Positions 50,201-62,538 of a stretch of DNA of 64,000 bases are shown here, one piece after another. Location: NCBI RefSeq assembly GCF_963675165.1, contig NC_087389.1, positions 4,090,830-4,154,829 on the forward strand. The letters are read 5' to 3'. The position numbers were made by a program, and so were the translations under genes. How positions within the stretch are numbered: position 1 is the stretch's first letter; the number at the start of each line of letters is the position of its first letter. The DNA is from Halichondria panicea (Eukaryota > Porifera > Demospongiae > Suberitida > Halichondriidae). The notes under the pieces were generated by a model. The model searched no databases and had not been told where the DNA came from. It worked only from the letters and a program-made list of their open reading frames with translations.

Positions 50201-51623
50201 TATTCCAAATGCTCCTGAGTTGGAGTCCTATGTTCAGATCAAACAAGCTGAGCTCTCCTCAAACCAGTACAGACTCACAGCCATGTTCCCGAAACCTGGC
50301 CAATGGCATGTTCATGTGTTTGCTTGTCCAGAGGAAGATGACGAAGATAACGAGACCGTCCGTGGTTTGTTTTCTCTTCTTGTGAATGTTGAAACGCCTA
50401 TGCAAGGTGCTGTGTCAGTGGCTCTCAGTTTAACAATTGCAGAAAAGATTCAACTCTACTTTCCAAACAAAGGTTACATCAGTTTCCCTGATATCGGCAA
50501 GCCATTGACAATTGACTTTGAATGTGATAAAAACACATCTTTCCAGCATCGAGTGTTTCCAGAAGATCAAGACGAAAAAACTTCAAAAGAGTACAATGGC
50601 CTGTCGCTCTTTACGCACTGTACGTACCTCACTCCACTCAACCGACCAGGTCTTCCCTCAAGCTTTCGTCCGATTCTACTGTCACGACGATCAATAACCC
50701 AACCAGTACTGCCTACTCACCTGTGTGAAATCATCTCTTATCAATTGCATGCCTCCTTTCCTTGGCCCGGAAAATGGACTGTGAAGGTCTTTGCTCAAGC
50801 TCCTGGAAGTTCTGATTACTCACTAGCATTTCACGTTACTATGAAAGTAACCAAGCCCTCGAGAGGAATTTGTTATCCCTTTATCTATGAGGAATTTATT
50901 CAGCTTGGCATTCGCATACCAATAGAATCTATCTGCTACAATCCAATCTGTAGTGAATCAACACAATTTGAGCTCCCTTTCATTGCCCCAGATGATCTCC
51001 AATATACCTGGAATATTGAAGTTGCCGGTAGTGATAGCTGCTATAAGAAACAAGGCTTTGTCTATATATCCGGGAACGCCCTTGCCGGACCTCCAAACAA
51101 CCACTTTCAACTGTCGTTTTCAACCCCTGGCATCTGGAGAGCAGTACTCTTTGCCAAAAAATCTACTCCAGAAGACAGCATACCTGAGGAAGACAGCTAC
51201 AAACCTGTGCTTGAGATTTCCCTTTTGGTCAACACTGTCGACAAAGATGTAGCTTTTCCTGAGATTTACCCAGCCTTCAAAAAATATGGCCTAAGCATTG
51301 CAAAAATGAATATTCCTTTTCTCTCTCGTGTGCAAAATAGTGTACAAAACACTTCTACTACAGTGATAGTTTCGCTGTTCAGTTTGGGTCCGGGTAATGT
51401 GCAATTTTATTGTCGCGTCAAGTGTGCTGAGAAGACCGAAGAAGAAAATCGGTTGTTGTTGCTGCGTAGTCAGATGTTGGAGGACACATATTCTGGGCTT
51501 AATGAAATTCGTGTCGATATATCTGAACCTGGAACATACAAGATACAGCTCGGGGCAAAGTGGAGGGATTGCAAGGAATATAAGTATGAACCTGTGCTCA
51601 CTCATATCGTTAGCAGTATCTGA
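47202..51623 (+). CDS. KY-type transglutaminase-like protein 1, catalytic Cys missing
   Basis: Two exons, 47202-48338 and 49086-51623, encode 1224 residues. MGTCSSKN is a good N-myristoylation plus palmitoylation signal, so membrane anchoring is likely. Residues 34-150 contain about five imperfect repeats of roughly 26 residues with the pattern EKSDSSS, Pro-rich, QQVPDH. The transglutaminase-like core follows: YVGYSILFVELAKLAG, HTWNAV (His375), VWFPVDCTFG (Asp390). The position of the nucleophile is Tyr329 in SSNYVGYS, where the paralog at 62.5 kb has Cys. The remaining 800 residues carry about five beta-sandwich-like repeats ending in motifs such as GQWHVHVFA, GKWTVKVFA and GIWRAVLFA, as in kyphoscoliosis peptidase family proteins. 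It probably has a structural rather than enzymatic role. Confidence 0.85.
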
Positions 51624-52339
51624 GGAACTACACTTTTTTTTTTAGATAGCGACGTATAGGATAGTGTATTGTATTGATTTTCTCTACCAGTAGTACCCTC
51701 GTTCATTTGCATTGTAATTTTAGACTACTTTTGATCATTAACCAATGCGTGGGTGTTGATTTATTTGGAGGTGGAGCTCGTTGCTGCCAGAGAACGGGAA
51801 CCTAATTTGCGGATGGGGGACTGGCCATCACTTGTGGATTGATTTGGGTAGATCGAATTTAAGAACAAAAAATGCAACTGTTGCATGTGTTGCACCTGTT
51901 GCAGCCAAGGAAGGGCGGCTGATTTATACTATGGGCGTGGTTTCCAGTCTAGCAACACTGCACTAGCTGTACTGTGCAGCAGGCAAATCCAACCCGTATG
52001 CAAAGGCGCTATATATAGCAGCTCGGAGTTTAATACTAACCTAGATTCCTTGCTCTAGACTAGTTAATAATAGAAAGTCAATCTGGCTAGCTATCCCACT
52101 AAAATGTGAATCGGATCCTGTGCTCTATGTCAGTATCAGTATCAGAGTTCTCTGCCGGTAATAATGTTTACCATGCAGATAAAGAGTGACTGAACGACGG
52201 TGACAACGGATTATAATAATTATAATGCCACAAATCAAACATAATTATTATGCATGTAATTATGACCATAACTGGGTAAATAGATAATAATAGTATACCG
52301 TACAGATAGTTTTGGCATTATTCGAAAGTTTGGCATTAT
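51624..52339. other. Spacer between KY1 and the PHD/P-loop gene (convergent 3' ends)
   Basis: Contains a segment (about 51745-51785) matching sequence beyond the Mutator-like element at 45.3 kb. I searched for terminal inverted repeats that could bound the downstream two-gene module and saw none here. Confidence 0.4.
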
Positions 52340-55300
52340 TCAGTTAATCACGGATAACTTTCCAGCTGGTGGATGACAGCTTGGACATATCCAAACTTGG
52401 CTCTCGAAAGGCAGCTCCTTCAAACCTACACAGGTGTAGTGATACCATCGCCAGCATGAGTCAGCCTCACACCCGACCCACATGCGTTTTCCCTTCTTCG
52501 TAAATTTCCCTCCACATTGCTGGCAGTGTTTCTCGTCTTCTGTATATATACAGTAGCACAAAATATTAATGGGCATGGTGACGTGTGCATGAATAAAATG
52601 TTGCTGTTGAGAAAACAAATTACTGTGTGCATGCATGTGTGCATGATTTTTACTTTCACGCTTGAAAGCAGAGGTACGTTTGCAAAAGCCATTTTTTAGA
52701 TGCTGCTGTCTTGACCAAACCACATGATGGGTGGAGTTGGCTGAAAAAACGCTCTATGAAAAAACGCTCTATGAAAAATGCACCTCTCTACAAAATGCAT
52801 CTCTCTACAAAATTCACCTCTCTAAAAAACGCATCTCTCTACAAAATTCACCTCTCTAAAAAACGCACCTCTGTACAAAACGTCTCTCTGAAAAATGTAC
52901 CTCTCCAAAAATTGCACCACCTATTTTTTAAAACGCACCTCTAATAAAAAGCAGCACCAAAACGCACTAATGCACAGTGGCGTAGCCAGGATTTTGGGAA
53001 GGGCAGGGCTCAAATCAGTTGAGCAGGGCATCACTTTTGCTCAGCAGTCAGCATGCGAATTAGATGGCCCTGCCCACATTTCCATTCAATGACATCCGGC
53101 ATTCTAGTAACTATACGCATGCAGTACAGTGCAGAATACATGGACAGATCACAGCTGAGTAGGAGTTGATAAAGCACAAAGGGGGGGGGGGCTCTAGCCC
53201 CTCAGCCCCCCCTCTGCCTACGCCACTGATGCATGCTGGTGTATAATCATGCATGCATCCTCACATAATTTATATGGACTATGCCGGAAAAGTTACCTGG
53301 TATTTTCTTGAGTTTGATGACCGAGTCAACCACTTCAATAGCTGTGATCTGTTGTTCTGCATGCATAATTTATAATAATGCATTCAAGTTCAACATTGAC
53401 ATACTATAATTATTATAGTCCGGTCACCCTATAATGTACATAATGTATGCATGTATGTACATGTATTATTATAATAATTATAGGGACAAGTACAGTGTCG
53501 CATGCAGTTTGGCCGCAATAGCAAGGTGGCTGCTTTAACAGCCTGCCACATGCCAATTAATTCGTGCCTAGCGAAACAAAAGGTATAATTATATAGAGAG
53601 GTGACCGTAATTCAAAGAGCTGAGAGTCTATACCGAATAGCGCAAAACACATTCTACAAAACGTCCACAAAATGGAACCTCCATTAAAAAATTATTGCTG
53701 TTATTTTGCACAATCGTGAAAACCTATAATTTATATAGATGCATGCATGTATAATTATAGCTGGTCCCGGCCGACCTATCTCACTTACCAGGGGAGACTT
53801 TTTGCTGCAATTCAAGCATTGGGGGATCCTGATGTGCCCCTTGAGTAATGGATGAAATGGAGGTCTTTTTATCTGCATCATGACGACTGCCCTCAAAATG
53901 TTTTTGTAGCTTTCTCGGTTTAATCTTGTGGCAGATTGGAGAAAATGATTGCTTGAGAGCAGCCACAGAATGTTTGTTAATTGGAGTGCTAGTAAAAACT
54001 CCTCTTGGTGTTGGCAGAGCTCTCTCTTTTCTCTTCTTTTGAGGATTAAGTAGTGAGGAATGCTCAATAACGTCGGACCGTGTAGTAAACTCAACTTCAT
54101 CATTGTCCGATGTAATTGGTGTAATCTGTTGAGAGGTGTGTAATTCTGCCTCAGAACTTGAAGGTGATCCATTCAAAGAAAGTGAGAGGTGTGGTCTCGT
54201 GCATCGCTTCTTCTTGGGAGACCTACACAACTTGGCAGGAGAATACAATTTTTTCTTCAATGTAACTGCAGCTGTTTGCCTCACATTCCTGCTCTGGTGA
54301 GCCTCATGTGCAGGAGTTTGTTGAGAGGAGGATGCAGGAATTTGTTGAGAGGAGGATGCAGGAGTTTGTTTCAGTTCAGAGGAGGCTATATTATATATAT
54401 AAATGATGACTGCCATAAATTAATTATTTTGAACATACGGCTTTTAGGGGCGGGGGGGATATTGCCTCATTAATTGAATAAAGAGTTATAGCATTTTCCT
54501 ACATAACCCAATAATTAATTTACCTTTCTCTAGTTTTGCTACTGTGTCGTTGCTGAGAGACGATTTTTGTATCACAAAACTCCGCACGTACACGTTGTTG
54601 GGTGACTGTCTTCCTTTTATTCCCGTCTGCACGTAGGGAAGGTTCACTCCAGGTTTGAGGAATAGCTGTGGAACACTTGGTTTGATACTGCCCCTGAACA
54701 AATTCGTAAGAGCACTCTTAAATGAGGATGACAGGGACTTTCCCATAGATTCATTGTGCTTCCTCAACTGCCCAATGTTGATTGCAAACTGATGAGAGCT
54801 TATATTTCGTACGAAAGTCAACACCTGCATGCATGCAATGCATATACATATAAATTGCATATAATAATTAGTATAAAACTGTTTACAGTATACTCTTGCA
54901 TGTTATATATAGTTGTTGTTAACTCACAGTGCTGGAAGGCTGCTGTGCAACTGATGAACACAGAACACGCTGGATGTCTTCTTTTGTTAAGTCTACTTGG
55001 GCCTCCATAGGTTCCAGCTGATACTTGGTAATGATTGGAACCATTGTGTTTTCGAAGTACTTCCATATCATTTCTTCAGCCTCAGGTTTCAGGACGTTTG
55101 CAACAGACAGTATCTGCATGTATTATTATTATTATAGCAAACCAACTATATACACTGTGTATTGTGGGGGTCTATATATATATACATGAATTATAAGCTT
55201 ATATAATTATATACGCATTTTCACCTTGAAAGTTGCTCCAAGCAACCAAGAGTAAGAAACGAGAAGGCGATGACAGGTGTTATCTGGCATTAGATGCTCA

Positions 55301-57046
55301 ACACGGGTAACAATGTGTTTGAAAAAGTTGTCTGCCTCTGGTGATTTGAAGAATTTCCCCATAGATATTACAACACCTACAGCTTTCCCAGCTTCCTTTG
55401 CCATGATTCGTTTCAACTTTCTGTCAGCATCAACATGTCTTGCTGCTTCAATATGTCCACTTTCCTCAAAAGGAACGAGAACAGCCCTAGTGATGTATCT
55501 ATATAATTATAATTAAGACCTCGTATTATTATAGCCGAAATGTTTGAGGCACTTAAATGTCCTTTACCTATATATATATATATGAAAACTGGGAAAATCA
55601 TAATACCTTGGATCCATGCTTGATAAAGCTTGCAGGCAGGTAGTATTCATTGATGTGAGAAACGTAGTTTTCGGGGCATCAAAAGAAGTAGTAGTGGCTC
55701 TGGTACCTCTATCAAAATGAAAGAGCAGCTTCTCCGATACTTCAGATGGATGAGACGGGTCATCAATAATCATGCCCAATGATGTGAGACTGCCAAACTT
55801 GATAGCTTTAACATCTGTGATAGATTTCACCTTGCTGACAGTATCCATTCCAACCAGGGATAAAGCTGCTTCAGCACTCCGTGTTTTGCCTAGCGAGACG
55901 TTCCCAACAGCAATAGCAGCTGGCACTTGAATTCCAATATCCTGCAGGAGAGAATAGTGGACTGCAAGGACTTCTGCTCCGATCATGAGAGTGGCTGCTG
56001 GAATGTTATGTTGGTACACATTCTCCAAAGCTTCCAACAATGAATGGAATTGTGATGGATCAAGAGATGCCGGGACAGTCGATGCCTCTTTTGAGGTAGG
56101 AAGACTATGTTTATGTAGTACACTGTCTGAAACGTAGTCCCCGAGCCAAATGAAGGGACTAGTTTTTGGATCTACTAGATCCCCATCGGCATTCATGTGC
56201 ACTTGACCGTTGAACACCCAAAGTTCAGAATGTGGTTGCAGACCTACAATCGTTGCCACTTGCTTCGTGTAATGGTGTGGATCTTCAGACTCCGACTTGA
56301 GGCAATAGAAATCCTCCAGCTTTTTCATGAGGTAAGCCTCGAGCTGTATATATAATTATGAGCTAATATTAATTATATAGATTGATAGCTTAATCAATAG
56401 CTACCATATATATAGATAAAATCCCTCTAAAAAATCCTGCCAAATCATCAGCAAGACGTTACAATCTTATAACCTTTGTGGTAAGGATCGTGATGTATAC
56501 ATAACGCAATCTCATAATGTTATCGCAAAATCGCAAAAATTATCATGCATGCTTATATTTTAATATCGGGATTTGCATGCATGTGTGTAATATATAGTTA
56601 TACTTACATTGTACATCAAGACACCTAAATATATATCTTTACCTGTGTGTTTGATGCATGAGTGGTGATTGAAGGATTGTGCACAGAAAATCTTAGTGAG
56701 TCAATGAGAGATCGTCTGCCACCTTTGGTCCAATCATTGGGAAAATATCCTTCTCTATAATAATTATTATAGTGTAATGATGAATATGCTCTATCTATAA
56801 ATGTGGATGGTGACATCTATTATCAGTAACAACGTACCCGAGAGTAGTTCCATCACTGAAGGTGACTGTGCATATATATCCAGACAACGGTCCATCCTCA
56901 TTCTGCACTTCATACGAAAGGTCAATCTTGAAGTTACTCAATGCCTTGAACGATGAGTCCTTGTACACACCAAATCTGTTATTTTTTTCAAAGATATCAA
57001 TGAAATAGTCAACAGTTTGACTTTCACTGTCTGATTCAGAATCCAT
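52340..57046 (-). CDS. P-loop NTPase-like protein with C-terminal PHD finger
   Basis: Nine exons, phases consistent, 891 residues: 57046-56838, 56754-56643, 56343-55607, 55498-55225, 55113-54928, 54824-54524, 54385-53789, 53356-53297, 52539-52340. The N-terminus is acidic (MDSESDSESQ). Residues 108-310 include LMKKLEDFYCLKSE, SPFIWLGDYV and a Walker A loop, AVGNVSLGKT (Lys260, Thr261), followed by a Walker B-like LGMIIDDPS and then RYITRAVLVPF. This resembles a family of uncharacterised animal proteins with GPSGTGKTTA and GVDDPQSK motifs. The middle is Ser/Lys-rich with CRSPKKKRC and several basic, probably nuclear-localising clusters. The last 66 residues are a PHD finger: CQQC, GCEADSC, WYHYTC, WICPSC. 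It is divergent from, and shares a 304-bp promoter with, the KDZ-like gene, which suggests joint function in the nucleus. Confidence 0.75.
52745..52960. repeat. Short-unit minisatellite
   Basis: About ten degenerate units of about 19-20 bp based on CACCTCTCTACAAAA / CACCTCTCTAAAAAACGCA. It lies in the last intron of the PHD/P-loop gene, next to a hAT-like MITE. Confidence 0.85.
52975..53228. mobile_element. hAT-like MITE in the last intron of the PHD/P-loop gene
   Basis: 254 bp bounded by CAGTGGCGTAGCCAGG and (reverse complement) CAGTGGCGTAGGCAGA. A G-run (53181-53190) followed by CTCTAGCCCCTCAGCCCCCC is typical of this class. Flanks share only ATGCA, so the target duplication is unclear. 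Confidence 0.7.
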
Positions 57047-57350
57047 GGTGGGCCCTATATATCAAGAACTTGATGAAAATTAACTTGGCTTGCTAAACAG
57101 AGTAGACTTGCAGAGGGATTGGCTCGGATTTACAATGTCCTAATAGGTCTAAGTAAGTCTCTATATATATGCCTGCCACATGTTATGGAGGAGCTGCTAC
57201 AGTGATCTCTATAGTGATTTCTAGCTGCCATGTGCACAAAGTGTAATAAACTTTCTGCACTGCACCCTGTCGACCTTGACTGTACTGTATGTAGAGTGAT
57301 GATCCACTAGTCTGTGCATGTATAGATACACTATACATATTGATTCTGAA
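57047..57350. promoter_or_regulatory. Divergent promoter between the P-loop/PHD and KDZ-like genes
   Basis: 304 bp between start codons on opposite strands. No TATA box or E-box was singled out. The shared short interval implies co-expression. Confidence 0.55.
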
Positions 57351-60198
57351 ATGGCTGCCAGTAAGCGTCCCAGGTATGACCCAAGTGTTGCAGAAGCCAC
57401 TGCTAAAGCGAAGGTGTCCCAGGCAAAACAAATGGAGAGTCTTACCACTGAGATTGTTCCAGCTATTGTCACTGCTGCCAAACAGTTACTCGGTAAAGGA
57501 AGTAAAGTGTCCACCGAAACGTTTCGGTTGGCACCTAAAGTTGCACAGATACTTCTTGTTGCTGACATCGGACTCCAGAAGTGCATGCAACTGATGTATG
57601 TTACGAAGAAGGTGCCTGTGAATGTGCCTAACAGGACTAAGGTTGTGTGTTCACTGATGGATCCTAACTACTGCATCCATGAAGACAGATGCAGAGTGTA
57701 CATAGACATCATTGAAACTTGTGTGGATGCACCTGTGTTTGACAACACACATACTAGTGACAGCACTCTGAACCACATTCCCAGGTATGTTATAGGGATT
57801 GCGTGCATGCATGTTTATAATTAGCCCGTTCCCAGGCCGAGTTTTCATATCAAATTGGCATCGCACTACTATATAATTATGGCAATGAGTTGTTTCCACC
57901 GGTACAACTTTAATTTGCCGGTTTTAAATTTCCAAAATAATTATATTTAGTTATAATTATTGTATACTCATGTATGCATGCTGACCCAAATCCAAATATG
58001 TATGTGCAGGTTTCTCACTCCTCCCGTTAATAGCTGCATTAATGACAGCTGTCGTATAAGTGGGCATGCAGACTCACTCATAAGTCATCACGACTCAACA
58101 GTTGTCACCGTATATTCTCTATCTGGTCCTGAAATTGGTGTCAAGCATGCACTAAAATGTCGAAATTGCAACTACATATATCACTATTCAGCGTATGGTC
58201 GGAAAACAAGTATCGGTGAAAAGTTGTACAATCAACCTAGAGATTTGGTTGAGGTTTCGGATGTGATCTATTGCGAGAGGGAATTGTACGAACTTTTCTG
58301 CAGCTTGAGGTATATAAGTTATATAATTTATGTGTATATTATAAGAATAACCACACACAGCTTACATTGCTGGGTATCTTTTTCGGGATTCAGCGAATCA
58401 TACACAGAATTCTCAATGAAATCGTGTAAGCAACAAATGTATATGCAAGCTTGGATGAAAAACAGAAAAGGTATATTTATACTATACTTTATAGTCTTGT
58501 CTGCTGCATGTATGATCTGCTGCCTGCTGTGTATTTTTATTACAAAATGCATATTATGATGTTTTCATATACTGCATGTTCATTGAATTTATATATAGGT
58601 TCACCTCATGAATTGACACGCAAAGCAGTGTCACAAATGTTCTACAATGGAGAGCTTGAGGATGAAGCAAGAAATGGGCACCTCCGTCCTGATGAAATGA
58701 TAGTCCACTTGAACAGTGACAAGCTGGAATACATGCAATACATTGTCGAAAAGCAATGCAGCAGTATGTACCAGCATGTCCCTAGAAAAGGGTGCATTGA
58801 ACGAGGTATGCATGCATAAGAAAATGTTGTTCAATTGACCAGTTGCATAATTATAACAGGTTGTGGCAAGTGTTGGTCCATTGATGGCAACTGGAAACTT
58901 TGTTTCCCTCACTGCATGTTTCCTGTCTTGTGTAAAGTTCCTAGTATGCCACTGCTGAACTTTCCAAGTGTATGCGTTAAGCAGCCCAGAGCAAACAGTG
59001 CTTTCTGCATTGAACATCACTCGAAAGCGGAATCGCTCAGCTATCCAACAGATGTGAGAGGCTTCCTTGGTTACTGTGGAGCGAAGAAATCAGCTGGTAT
59101 ATATATAGATTGAAGTCCTATATTATATATATATGCACGTGCTCTATTTATTATGCCCGGCATGCATGCAACTTGTATGTATTTATAGACTGTGCAGTGA
59201 TTCTTCCCAATGAAAATCCGGTACTCACTGATGTCATGGATTCAGTGTCTGTTCAGCAAGAAAATGAGCACATACAGGAAACCATGGAAGTCATCTCTGC
59301 CGCTTGCACAGAGGAATCTGACAGTCTATTGAAATCTCAAGGTTTGTTATGTGCATGCATTGATATGCATGTATATATAATACTCTTATTAACTCCATAT
59401 TTGCAGGAGTACAAGACTTTGCTCGAGAGTTCCCTTCTGTTGCTGTAAGCATCTCTAGTTGTGAAGAAGACAAGAGTGTGATTCAGTGCAGAAAAGATCT
59501 AGGGGAGCGAAAAAAGATTCAGCTGTGGAGTAGAGGACATGTATTTCTTGTGCGCCCCTGCGGACATATTGAGTTTTGGAGAACAATCTATCGGTAAGTT
59601 CATGCTGCATTGCATAATTATATAATTATACGCATGCTGTTGTGCTTGATGTTATAAATGCATGCAGGTCTGAATCACCCTCTCAAGTATTCTTGATTGT
59701 GATTGTCTGGCTCTATCAGACTCTGAAGGACGTACCTCCAGACAAATGGGGAGAGATTATACTTGCTTATGACAATATGTGCCAGCTTGATAGTCTCCGT
59801 GCAGCAAAACAACCCCTTGCACTGCCAAAACCATATGACCTAATGTGGCAGAAAATCACCAAGGTATATATAATATATATAATTATCATGACATAATTAC
59901 ATACATGCATGCATGCATGCAGGTTATTGATGATTTGCACATTAAAAATCATGTACGAACAGACTGTCAGACAACTTACCATCCTTCCAAGGTTCGAGAA
60001 TTGAACCCTCTACTTAACCTCATGACAGCAGAGCAAACATTTGCTTGGATTTCCAGATACAAGCGTATTCTGTGTAGCATGAACAAACTTCATCATCAGT
60101 TTTTCTTACACAGAATTGTATACAGGAGAAACAGATATACTGAGTGGTGCATTGACACTGGTAGAAAGGTTCTTCTCCCTGTGAACGTTTCTAAGTAG
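57351..60198 (+). CDS. KDZ-type (CxC-cluster) transposase-like protein
   Basis: Nine exons, phases consistent, 699 residues: 57351-57784, 58010-58309, 58361-58470, 58599-58805, 58860-59096, 59189-59341, 59407-59593, 59668-59863, 59923-60198. An N-terminal helical part is followed by a Cys-rich section (SCINDSC, CRNCNYIYHYSAYGR, CERELYELFC) like the CxC cysteine clusters found with Kyakuja-Dileera-Zisupton transposases. Next are GCGKCWSIDGNWKLCFPHC, AYDNMCQLD and TAEQTFAWISRYKRI. These match the DGN-, YD-xxC- and E-containing motifs of the KDZ RNase H fold. Predicted catalytic triad: Asp359, Asp578, Glu645. A second Cys/His group lies around residues 375-425, and LHIKNH...DC is also typical. 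All three acidic residues are present and no frame is broken. It could be an active transposase or a domesticated one. Confidence 0.75.
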
Positions 60199-60711
60199 AT
60201 ATAATAATTATTGCACACGGTAATTAATGCCGGATATAATAATAAATGCAAGCAGTGATAATTATTATTGATGATGTTGACACCACAGTAAAAAATGCGT
60301 GCATGCATGACTGAAAGGATGCATGCATGCATGCATGGTATAGCTATATATATACATATCTAATTATGTGTATGACTATAATTATATAAATGAGATATAA
60401 TTATATAAATGAGATATAATTATATAGCATGCATGCATGCATGTATATTAAATAGCTATAATTATATATAATTATAATTATAGTCTCCACATGCATGCAG
60501 TCAGTATTATAGTTCAGAGGGTCCTCCACAGCTTCTATATACATGTACGTATATATATGCCGTCATGCATGCATGTTCTCTCGCAGCACAACCAACTCTC
60601 TGCAGTGCATGCATGCATGGGAAAGAAATTATTAACATAACTTGTAATTCAGTATAATGCAACATAATTATTATAATTATGCAACAGAACGTATACATAC
60701 AGTGCAACATG

Positions 60712-61632
60712 CAGATGCAACAGATGCAACGGTGCAACAGATGCAACAGGTGCAATTAACGGTGCAACAGGTGCAACGGTGCAACAGATGCAACGGTGCT
60801 ACAGATGCAACCGTGGAACAGATGCAACAGATGCAACAGATGCAACGGTGCAACAGATGCAACAGATGCAACAGATGCAACGATGCAACAGATGCAACGG
60901 TGCAACAGATGCAACGGTGCAACAGATACAGCAGGTGCAACGGTGCAACAGATGCAACAGATGCAACGGTGCAACAGGTGCAACGGTGCAACAGGTGCAA
61001 CGGTGCAACAGATGCAACGGTGCTACAGATGCAACCGTGGAACAGATGCAACAGATGCAACAGATGCAACGGTGCAACAGATGCAACAGATGCAACAGAT
61101 GCAACGATGCAACAGATGCAACGGTGCAACAGATGCAACGGTGCAACAGATGCAACGGTGAAACAGATGCAACGGTGCAACAGATGCAGCGGTGCAACAG
61201 ATGCAACAGATGCAACGGTGCAACAGGTGCAACGGTGCAACAGATGCAACGGTGCTACAGATGCAACCGTGGAACAGATGCAACAGATGCAATGGTGCAA
61301 CAGATGCAACAGATGCAACAGATGCAACGATGCAACGATGCAACAGATGCAACGGTGCAACAGATACAGCAGGTGCAACGGTGCAACAGATGCAACAGAT
61401 GCAACAGATGCAACGGTGCAACAGATACAGCAGGTGCAACGGTGCAACAGATGCAACAGATGCAACGGTGCAACGGTGCAACAGATGCAACGGTGCAACA
61501 GATGCAACGGTGAAACAGATGCAACGGTGCAACAGATGCAGCGGTGCAACAGATGCAACAGATGCAACGGTGCAACAGATGCAACAGATGCAACGATGCA
61601 ACAGATCTCACGTGCAACAGATGCAACGGTGC
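60712..61632. repeat. Minisatellite of GATGCAAC/GGTGCAAC units
   Basis: About 920 bp built from 9-bp (AGATGCAAC) and 8-bp (GGTGCAAC) subunits. A marker variant, GTGCTACAGATGCAACCGTG, recurs at about 60796, 61020 and 61252, giving a higher-order period of about 224-232 bp. The mixture of 8- and 9-bp units leaves several frames open on both strands; these are not genes. Confidence 0.95.
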
Positions 61633-61649
61633 ATGCAATGCAAGTGATC

Positions 61650-61798
61650 ATGCGTGGACAGAGGAGGCGCGGTGCAGCTCAGGCAATTAGTAAACAATAA
61701 TAATATTATCCGCCCACGTCGTATGTTTTTGCTGAGAGTAATCAAAGGCTAATTACTTGAGCTGCACCGCGCTTGTCGGACCTCCTCTGATGCGTGGG
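61650..61798. mobile_element. Mutator-like MITE (copy 2)
   Basis: Element 61659-61789, about 131 bp, same family as 24657-24798: CAGAGGAGG end, GCGCGGTGCAGCTCAGGCAA, central ATTATCCGCCCACGTCGTA, and the inverted right arm. Flanking 9-mers ATGCGTGGA and ATGCGTGGG match at 8 of 9 positions. Confidence 0.85.
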
Positions 61799-62538
61799 CT
61801 TAGGCTAAGTCTTAGCCTCGATTCCCGAACGGCTATACGCTCTAAGTAATCGAGGCTACTTAAGTACCTCGATTACCAGGCCGCACTAGCTAGTGGGATG
61901 GATAGCCTCGAATCCTTGATTATACAGCCACAGTAATGGCGATCCCATGCAACGTGCTACTGTTGCATTTATGTGCGTACATAATTCGTGTGCCCATATC
62001 ACGCCATATCTACTGGCCATGCCAGTGAAGGAATTCTAGTGTAGCATTTAATACACTTGCACAATTCATTTCTTATTCTCTGAGGTGCACTGAAGTCTGC
62101 TATCTGAAGTCTGCTATCTGCTATCTGCTATCGATACGTGACAACGCTTTCAAAGCTCGCAGGATTCATATAGCCCTAGGTGAGTGCATACCAATGATAT
62201 CTATGCATTGGTGCAATGTCGGACTGAAAGTATAGCTAGTTAGAGAGTGTCACTGTGTTTATGAGCTGTACCAGCTCTAAATCTAGCTATATAGATGATG
62301 GTGATGTGATATAGATATATATGTGATATCTAGCATGCATTGTTTATAATAAGTTTATCTATAAAATAATTATTAATTAAGGCTTAGCTTTGTTTCATTT
62401 TGCTTTGATTTTGTTAGCTCTCTGGTAACTATGGATAAGGTGTATAATTGATCCAACCAAGACTGCATGGGCACGGATTTTTTGATTTGATGTGCACAGC
62501 ATGTGAAAACCTCTGTATAATAATATCTTTCCTGCAGA

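Follow-up and report, generated by a model that had tools for sequence, protein, structure and literature searches.

Two genes that stand head to head in the genome of the sponge Halichondria panicea, one encoding a P-loop-like, PHD-containing protein (gene A) and the other a KDZ-type transposase-like protein (gene B), raise the question of whether they are host genes, chance neighbours or parts of one mobile element. They lie in a stretch of 64,000 nucleotides (NCBI RefSeq assembly GCF_963675165.1, contig NC_087389.1, positions 4,090,830 to 4,154,829 of the forward strand), hereafter referred to as the window, in whose numbering all coordinates without a contig label are given. We find that positions 51829-62012 are one complete 10,184-bp DNA transposon containing both genes. 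In the explanation that we favor, and that we consider probable, this is a KDZ-superfamily transposon in which B serves as the DDE transposase and A as a dedicated ATPase-like partner that aids assembly or targeting in the manner of IstB and TnsC.

Boundaries and copies of the element

The ends of the element were found by comparing copies rather than by searching for inverted repeats; such a search of positions 51600-60700 returned 242 pairs, of which the 25 longest are AT-rich or GCATGC repeats. The transposon reads 5'-CACTTGTGG...CATATCTA-3', and both ends are common to six shortened copies, which were reached through short fragments of B and carry a large internal deletion that fuses the 3' portion of A with the final exon of B. 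Among the nine places that have the left end are the window and the six shortened copies; in seven copies the last 134 nt of the right end are 100% identical. In the window, the element is bordered by an exact 8-bp target-site duplication (TSD), CTGGCCAT, at 51821..51828 and 62013..62020. Exact 8-bp TSDs were seen in five of the six copies read at both ends (CTGGCCAT in the window, and GATGGATT, TGTATTCT, TGTGTAGA and TGGAAGAA); the right end of a seventh copy lies outside the sequence fetched. On contig C9, a shortened copy is inserted in a MULE element, and an uninterrupted relative of that element, L065, represents the empty site with a single TGTGTAGA. The bounds 51829-62012 thus follow from the ends common to the copies, the 8-bp TSDs and the empty site. 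The insertion on C9 (C9:2863443-2871253) lies within the MULE transposase gene of the L065-like element.

A preliminary description of this locus had found neither terminal inverted repeats nor a target duplication; both are in fact present, lying beyond the outer limits of the gene pair by about 0.5 kb on the left and 1.8 kb on the right. A local alignment of the left end (51835..51894, plus strand, with a subterminal ATGCAAC motif) with the right end (61948..62006, minus strand) scores 45, compared to a maximum of 32 among 1000 single-base shuffles. These terminal inverted repeats are imperfect: 13 of the 20 terminal bases pair, and equally good pairing was obtained in 24 of 20000 shuffles.

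Two long copies on contig C1, designated cA and cB, also hold A and B head to head and are 90-97% similar to the window by segment; one partial copy keeps the same arrangement. Both long copies are decayed: B is broken in each, and A has a frameshift in cB and, in cA, a premature stop along with a stretch that is out of frame. This leaves the window's copy as the only intact one among the three long copies examined. The window element is probably autonomous. Both of its ends are absent from cA and cB as far as sequence was fetched, and a piece similar to the right end was found downstream of cB. Because cA and cB have flanking sequence in common, they are segmental duplicates.

The preliminary description had left domestication or mere adjacency of the two genes as possibilities. 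Domestication is made unlikely by the TSDs, the ends common to the copies, the empty site and the two decayed sister copies, and adjacency gives way to a single unit in view of the TSD and of the recurrent pairing described below. An account in terms of domesticated host genes or chance neighbours could appeal to the intactness of the window copy alone among the long copies, to the long multi-exon genes, and to cA and cB being segmental duplicates with common flanks. The deleted derivatives stand against it together with the TSDs, the common ends, the empty site and the recurrent pairing, and we regard it as very improbable; domestication or chance adjacency of A and B was accordingly rejected as already contradicted by these marks of mobility and by the pairing.

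Two kinds of KDZ-ATPase pair adjoin each other twice on contig C1, at C1:16748087-16761366 and at C1:17155335-17169095. The two places are probably duplicated segments, and possibly a graveyard of these elements.

Within the window element, a minisatellite TGCAACAGATGCAACGG (TGCAAC) occupies 60716..61633 on the plus strand before the right end, with a short inverted copy at 51873-51903 on the left side. Intron 8 of gene A holds a nested insertion (52974..53224) with inverted ends CAGTGGCGTAG...CTACGCCACTG, recognized by eye, that is missing from the six shortened copies, cA and cB. Outside the element, the left flank has Transglut_core in one frame and Ig-like_KY in the next, and the right flank has a frame with Transglut_core; the two are 46% identical over 203 amino acids. 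By these domains and this identity the flanking genes can be classed as KY-type paralogs, in agreement with the insertion between tandem KY paralogs proposed previously. For the insertion in the window, no empty site turned up at a paralogous position, the sole matches being the two flanks themselves.

The two divergent genes

The gene models of the preliminary description held up. Gene A (57046 to 52340, minus strand) encodes 891 amino acids in nine exons (57046-56838, 56754-56643, 56343-55607, 55498-55225, 55113-54928, 54824-54524, 54385-53789, 53356-53297 and 52539-52340), and gene B (57351 to 60198, plus strand) encodes 688 amino acids, likewise in nine exons (57351-57784, 58010-58309, 58394-58470, 58599-58805, 58860-59096, 59189-59341, 59407-59593, 59668-59863 and 59923-60198). 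Both spliced frames are open with no internal stop, all 16 introns are of the GT-AG type, and the phases are compatible. The 304 bp between the two start codons (57047..57350) presumably serve as a bidirectional promoter.

The assignment of B as KDZ-type is supported by two Pfam families. CxC5 (PF18718) scores 42.1 bits on the full-length protein (cut-off 26.9), its cysteine cluster lying N-terminal to the catalytic part, and a separate scan of the C-terminal 206 amino acids gives KDZ (PF18758) at 34.3 bits (cut-off 26.6). This C-terminal fragment is 24% identical over 191 columns to a KDZ-positive frame at another locus, L012 (32.6 bits). On these profile scores, we identify B as a KDZ transposase. 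Across the 131-Mb genome, at least 87 matches to protein B were counted. The proposed catalytic residues, D348 (58883-58885), D567 (59771-59773) and E634 (60031-60033; 58883..60033 in all, plus strand), are all present in the relative L064. D567 and E634 also occur in L048-L050, a second KDZ family, in which an equivalent of D348 was not found with the pattern used. The three copies of this second family that were compared have a sharp left end, CATTTGCTGTATCATTTGCGG.

The P-loop-like and PHD features claimed for A were likewise recovered. Reading by eye identified a Walker A motif, GNVSLGKT (residues 254-261; 55882..55905, minus strand), a Walker B motif, IIDD, and a sensor 1-like TSMN. In five aligned A-like cores, those of the window and four relatives, core-exon positions G147, G152, K153, D194 and N233 are invariant, corresponding to two glycines and the lysine of Walker A, the first aspartate of Walker B and the asparagine. 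The PHD finger (PF00628; residues 831-880; 52376..52525, minus strand) exceeds the cut-off of 24 bits as a fragment (26.7 bits) but not when the whole protein is scanned (21.9 bits). Searches for more distant kinship of A gave little. An NCBIfam scan yielded nothing useful, Protein Data Bank (PDB) searches by sequence nothing significant, and a PDB profile search a single match (E 1.5) to a different protein, neither IstB nor TnsC. No relative of residues 1-606 was found in a plasmid collection, and none of exon 3 was confirmed in viral contigs.

Pairing of A-like genes with two transposase superfamilies

Relatives of both proteins were sought in the window's own genome. Protein A has at least 66 matches there, comprising close copies and distant relatives (24-31% identity), and a query with one relative adds more. 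A co-location table, assembled by hand from the best candidates, so that its counts are lower bounds, comprises 29 A-like loci, 23 KDZ-B loci and 31 MULE (PF10551) hits. The A-like set includes C8:4620805, which has residues 505-807 alone; the six shortened copies and a C5 fragment, which lack the ATPase core, were excluded from it, as were, on the B side, six short fragments (598-644) that are part of the shortened copies.

A KDZ or MULE transposase lies within 8 kb of 20 of the 29 A-like loci, and in all 20 the two genes are head to head. Since at most 0.7% of the genome lies within that distance, the pairing is not due to chance. A 21st A-like locus was found by eye to be paired with a decayed MULE in a MULE search with the L065 protein, bringing the total to 21 of 29, head to head in each; homologs of the two window genes thus do neighbour each other, contrary to the outcome that the preliminary description had named as evidence against a common module. 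A-like cores for which neither a KDZ nor a MULE transposase was found within 8 kb are located at C1:5241746-5242558, C17:4111807, C10:4195595, C15:1500937, C1:4680515, C10:4075268 and C17:4100335. Such unpaired cores may belong to a third kind of transposase or be remnants.

A-like genes are paired with KDZ transposases in the window and at L064, where the KDZ and the A that form the facing pair are both diverged, and with a MULE transposase at L065; one ATPase-like family therefore accompanies two unrelated transposase superfamilies. L064 is related to L048-L050, in which no A match was found in the 8.5-9 kb fetched of each. L065 (C2:973549-982509) is an 8,961-bp MULE element that holds the ATPase-like gene and the MULE transposase inside one unit, delimited by an inverted repeat of about 137 columns, the first hundred nearly perfect, and by a target duplication of 9 bp, GTGTTTTAG, recognized by eye. 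Its A-like exon faces an 808-amino-acid open frame in which MULE scores 44.2 bits (cut-off 27.6) and which ends in a C-terminal PHD-like finger (19.4 bits, below the Pfam cut-off). The element probably moved recently, because its ATPase exon is present in five copies whose protein sequences are 100% identical. L065 also contains long inverted minisatellite arrays.

The arrangement of these pairs bears on whether A takes a direct part in transposition at all. As an accessory gene, A might instead counter silencing or ease expression of the element via chromatin, which would suit its PHD finger and has a precedent in fungal KDZ elements carrying TET/JBP genes, for which a similar role has been proposed (PMC12730594). 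Such a role would not account well for the identical head-to-head placement with two transposase superfamilies, nor for the P-loop core being the common part of the relatives, with L064 and L065 showing no PHD finger in their A-like frames on inspection by eye, and we consider it improbable.

The possible role of gene A

The mobility of the element, its ends and target duplication, its gene content and the recurrent pairing are directly observed. In the reading that we favor, in which A is the dedicated partner of the transposase, B would bind the element ends, cut and join them, and leave the 8-bp target duplication, with catalysis proceeding through D348, D567 and E634. A would assemble on DNA in an ATP-dependent manner and, like IstB or TnsC, aid the assembly of the transposase or its choice of target, and the PHD finger may tether the complex to chromatin. 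A PHD-like finger (below cut-off) on the MULE transposase instead of the ATPase would fit one joint complex.

Several observations weigh against this reading. For B, KDZ (PF18758) is unlisted in the Pfam scan of the full-length protein, and a genome search with the same profile, exon by exon, gave 53 matches, none inside the window. In an oyster mushroom, CxC5/CxC6 frames are reported to be many-copy and not associated with KDZ transposons (PMC7641404), so that CxC5 alone would not prove membership of the KDZ family. For A, neither the ATPase exon of the window nor the three L064 pieces matched any Pfam family, and a genome-wide search with PF06048 (DUF927) returned 0 matches. AlphaFold models of the core exon were poor, with a predicted local distance difference test (pLDDT) score of 38 with five sequences and 33 with one, and Foldseek found no match at E <= 0.001 for the better of them (pLDDT 38); many titles of AAA+ machines appear among the 50 rows shown, none significant, and they are not used as evidence. 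Comparison of A with the decayed cA (605 codons in exons 1-6, after removal of one stop codon) gave 3 synonymous and 11 other changed codons, a ratio of nonsynonymous to synonymous change (dN/dS) of about 0.8 with no constraint visible, a value that is uninformative against a dead copy. As to mobility, the copy at C1:8.9 Mb, one of the six read at both ends, lacks a TSD. As to the pairing, the 21 pairs represent about six sequence lineages and not independent events, and no transposase was found within 8 kb at 8 of the 29 A-like loci. Conversely, an A-like neighbour lies within 8 kb of 11 of the 23 KDZ-B loci (12 are without one) and of 9 of the 31 MULE hits (22 without). Because these 12 and 22 loci have no A-like gene nearby, A may be dispensable for some transposase relatives, or may have been lost there.

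Weak signals of DUF927 were found in the core exons of three relatives at 21.4 bits (L069), 16.6 bits (L065) and 13.4 bits (L068), where DUF927 is the only, the second and the fourth Pfam signal, respectively; all are below the cut-off, the best at 21.4 compared to 22.6 bits. Given the absence of a Pfam match for the window exon, the weak DUF927 signals and the poor models, the designation of A as a P-loop ATPase rests on its conserved motifs, and its ATPase fold is unproven. A resembles the DUF927 ATPases, SCCmec Cch and SaPIBov1 Rep, in its P-loop region and in the weak profile similarity of the three relatives, and differs from them in that all three score below the cut-off and the window exon has no match. 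The main alternative is built on this likeness: A would be a DUF927-like helicase or replication factor that unwinds element DNA, transposition would be replicative or repaired by replication, and A would not choose targets. It can point to DUF927 as the sole family signal in L069, just below the cut-off, and to a paper that names DUF927 in Cch, an MCM-like helicase with a stated relationship to the Rep helicase of SaPIBov1 (PMC7581432). Yet the DUF927 matches span just 26 to 64 residues around Walker A, the Pfam and NCBIfam scans listed no other helicase domain for A, and the TSD and the deleted copies are equally compatible with cut-and-paste transposition. We therefore treat a helicase role as possible and, on balance, unlikely.

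How the window element, read as a KDZ transposon with a dedicated partner, compares with known systems depends on the component considered. It shares with the KDZ superfamily (Zisupton, Dileera, Kyakuja) the KDZ domain, above cut-off as a fragment, and the CxC cluster in B, and departs from it by the added P-loop-like/PHD partner gene. Its 8-bp TSD agrees with that stated for Zisupton and a Dileera element (PMC12730594), and terminal inverted repeats, here imperfect, are a further likeness to Zisupton; for Zisupton-like elements of Pristionchus, inverted ends are reported, but without a target duplication that could be detected (PMC9297572). It is unlike the two Kyakuja families described, which have a 7-bp TSD, CA..TG ends and no terminal inverted repeats (PMC12730594). 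The fungal KDZ elements with TET/JBP genes also couple a transposase to a second gene tied to chromatin or DNA marks, that gene being a dioxygenase and not an ATPase (PMC12730594). Among MULE-like elements, Rehavkus is listed as PHD-bearing, with a minisatellite, a 9-bp TSD and one open reading frame (PMC6446971). Compared by description, the MULE partner in this genome has a PHD-like end (below cut-off), a 9-bp TSD and minisatellites as well, whereas it holds an ATPase-like gene within its inverted repeats and Rehavkus is listed with one open reading frame; MULE-Co (Filozoa) is listed with two, the second of unknown nature (PMC6446971). IS21 (IstA/IstB) combines a DDE transposase and a separate, dedicated AAA+ ATPase gene in one element (PMC11208146). 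The window element would resemble IS21 and Tn7 in this respect, provided that A, likened to them by its motifs, is an ATPase. The window pair differs from both IS21 and Tn7 in its transposase family, its divergent genes and its PHD finger; the likeness to IstB and TnsC seen here is one of arrangement.

Several bacterial transposons, CRISPR-guided ones included, are characterized by a separate regulatory ATPase, which underlies their target choice; Tn7, for example, combines a DDE transposase, TnsB, with a separate ATPase gene, TnsC, in one element. We know of no eukaryotic cut-and-paste transposon described with a separate regulatory ATPase, and a literature search revealed, among the matches listed, no eukaryotic transposon with such an ATPase, which is weak evidence, as Repbase and most subscription papers were outside its scope. 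A wider proposition, on which we are evenly divided, is that eukaryotes have a family of dedicated transposition ATPases, a counterpart of IstB and TnsC, that has passed between DDE transposases of unrelated kinds (KDZ and MULE), with a PHD finger on either partner steering integration by chromatin marks. Elsewhere in the same genome, relatives of A are head to head with a cut-and-paste enzyme of an entirely different kind, and for this reason A may be a dedicated helper of the sort found in certain bacterial transposons. With a defined 10-kb element whose ends and TSD are established, whose two genes are intact and which has naturally shortened copies, the role of the ATPase and PHD finger in the choice of landing site becomes directly testable in cells.

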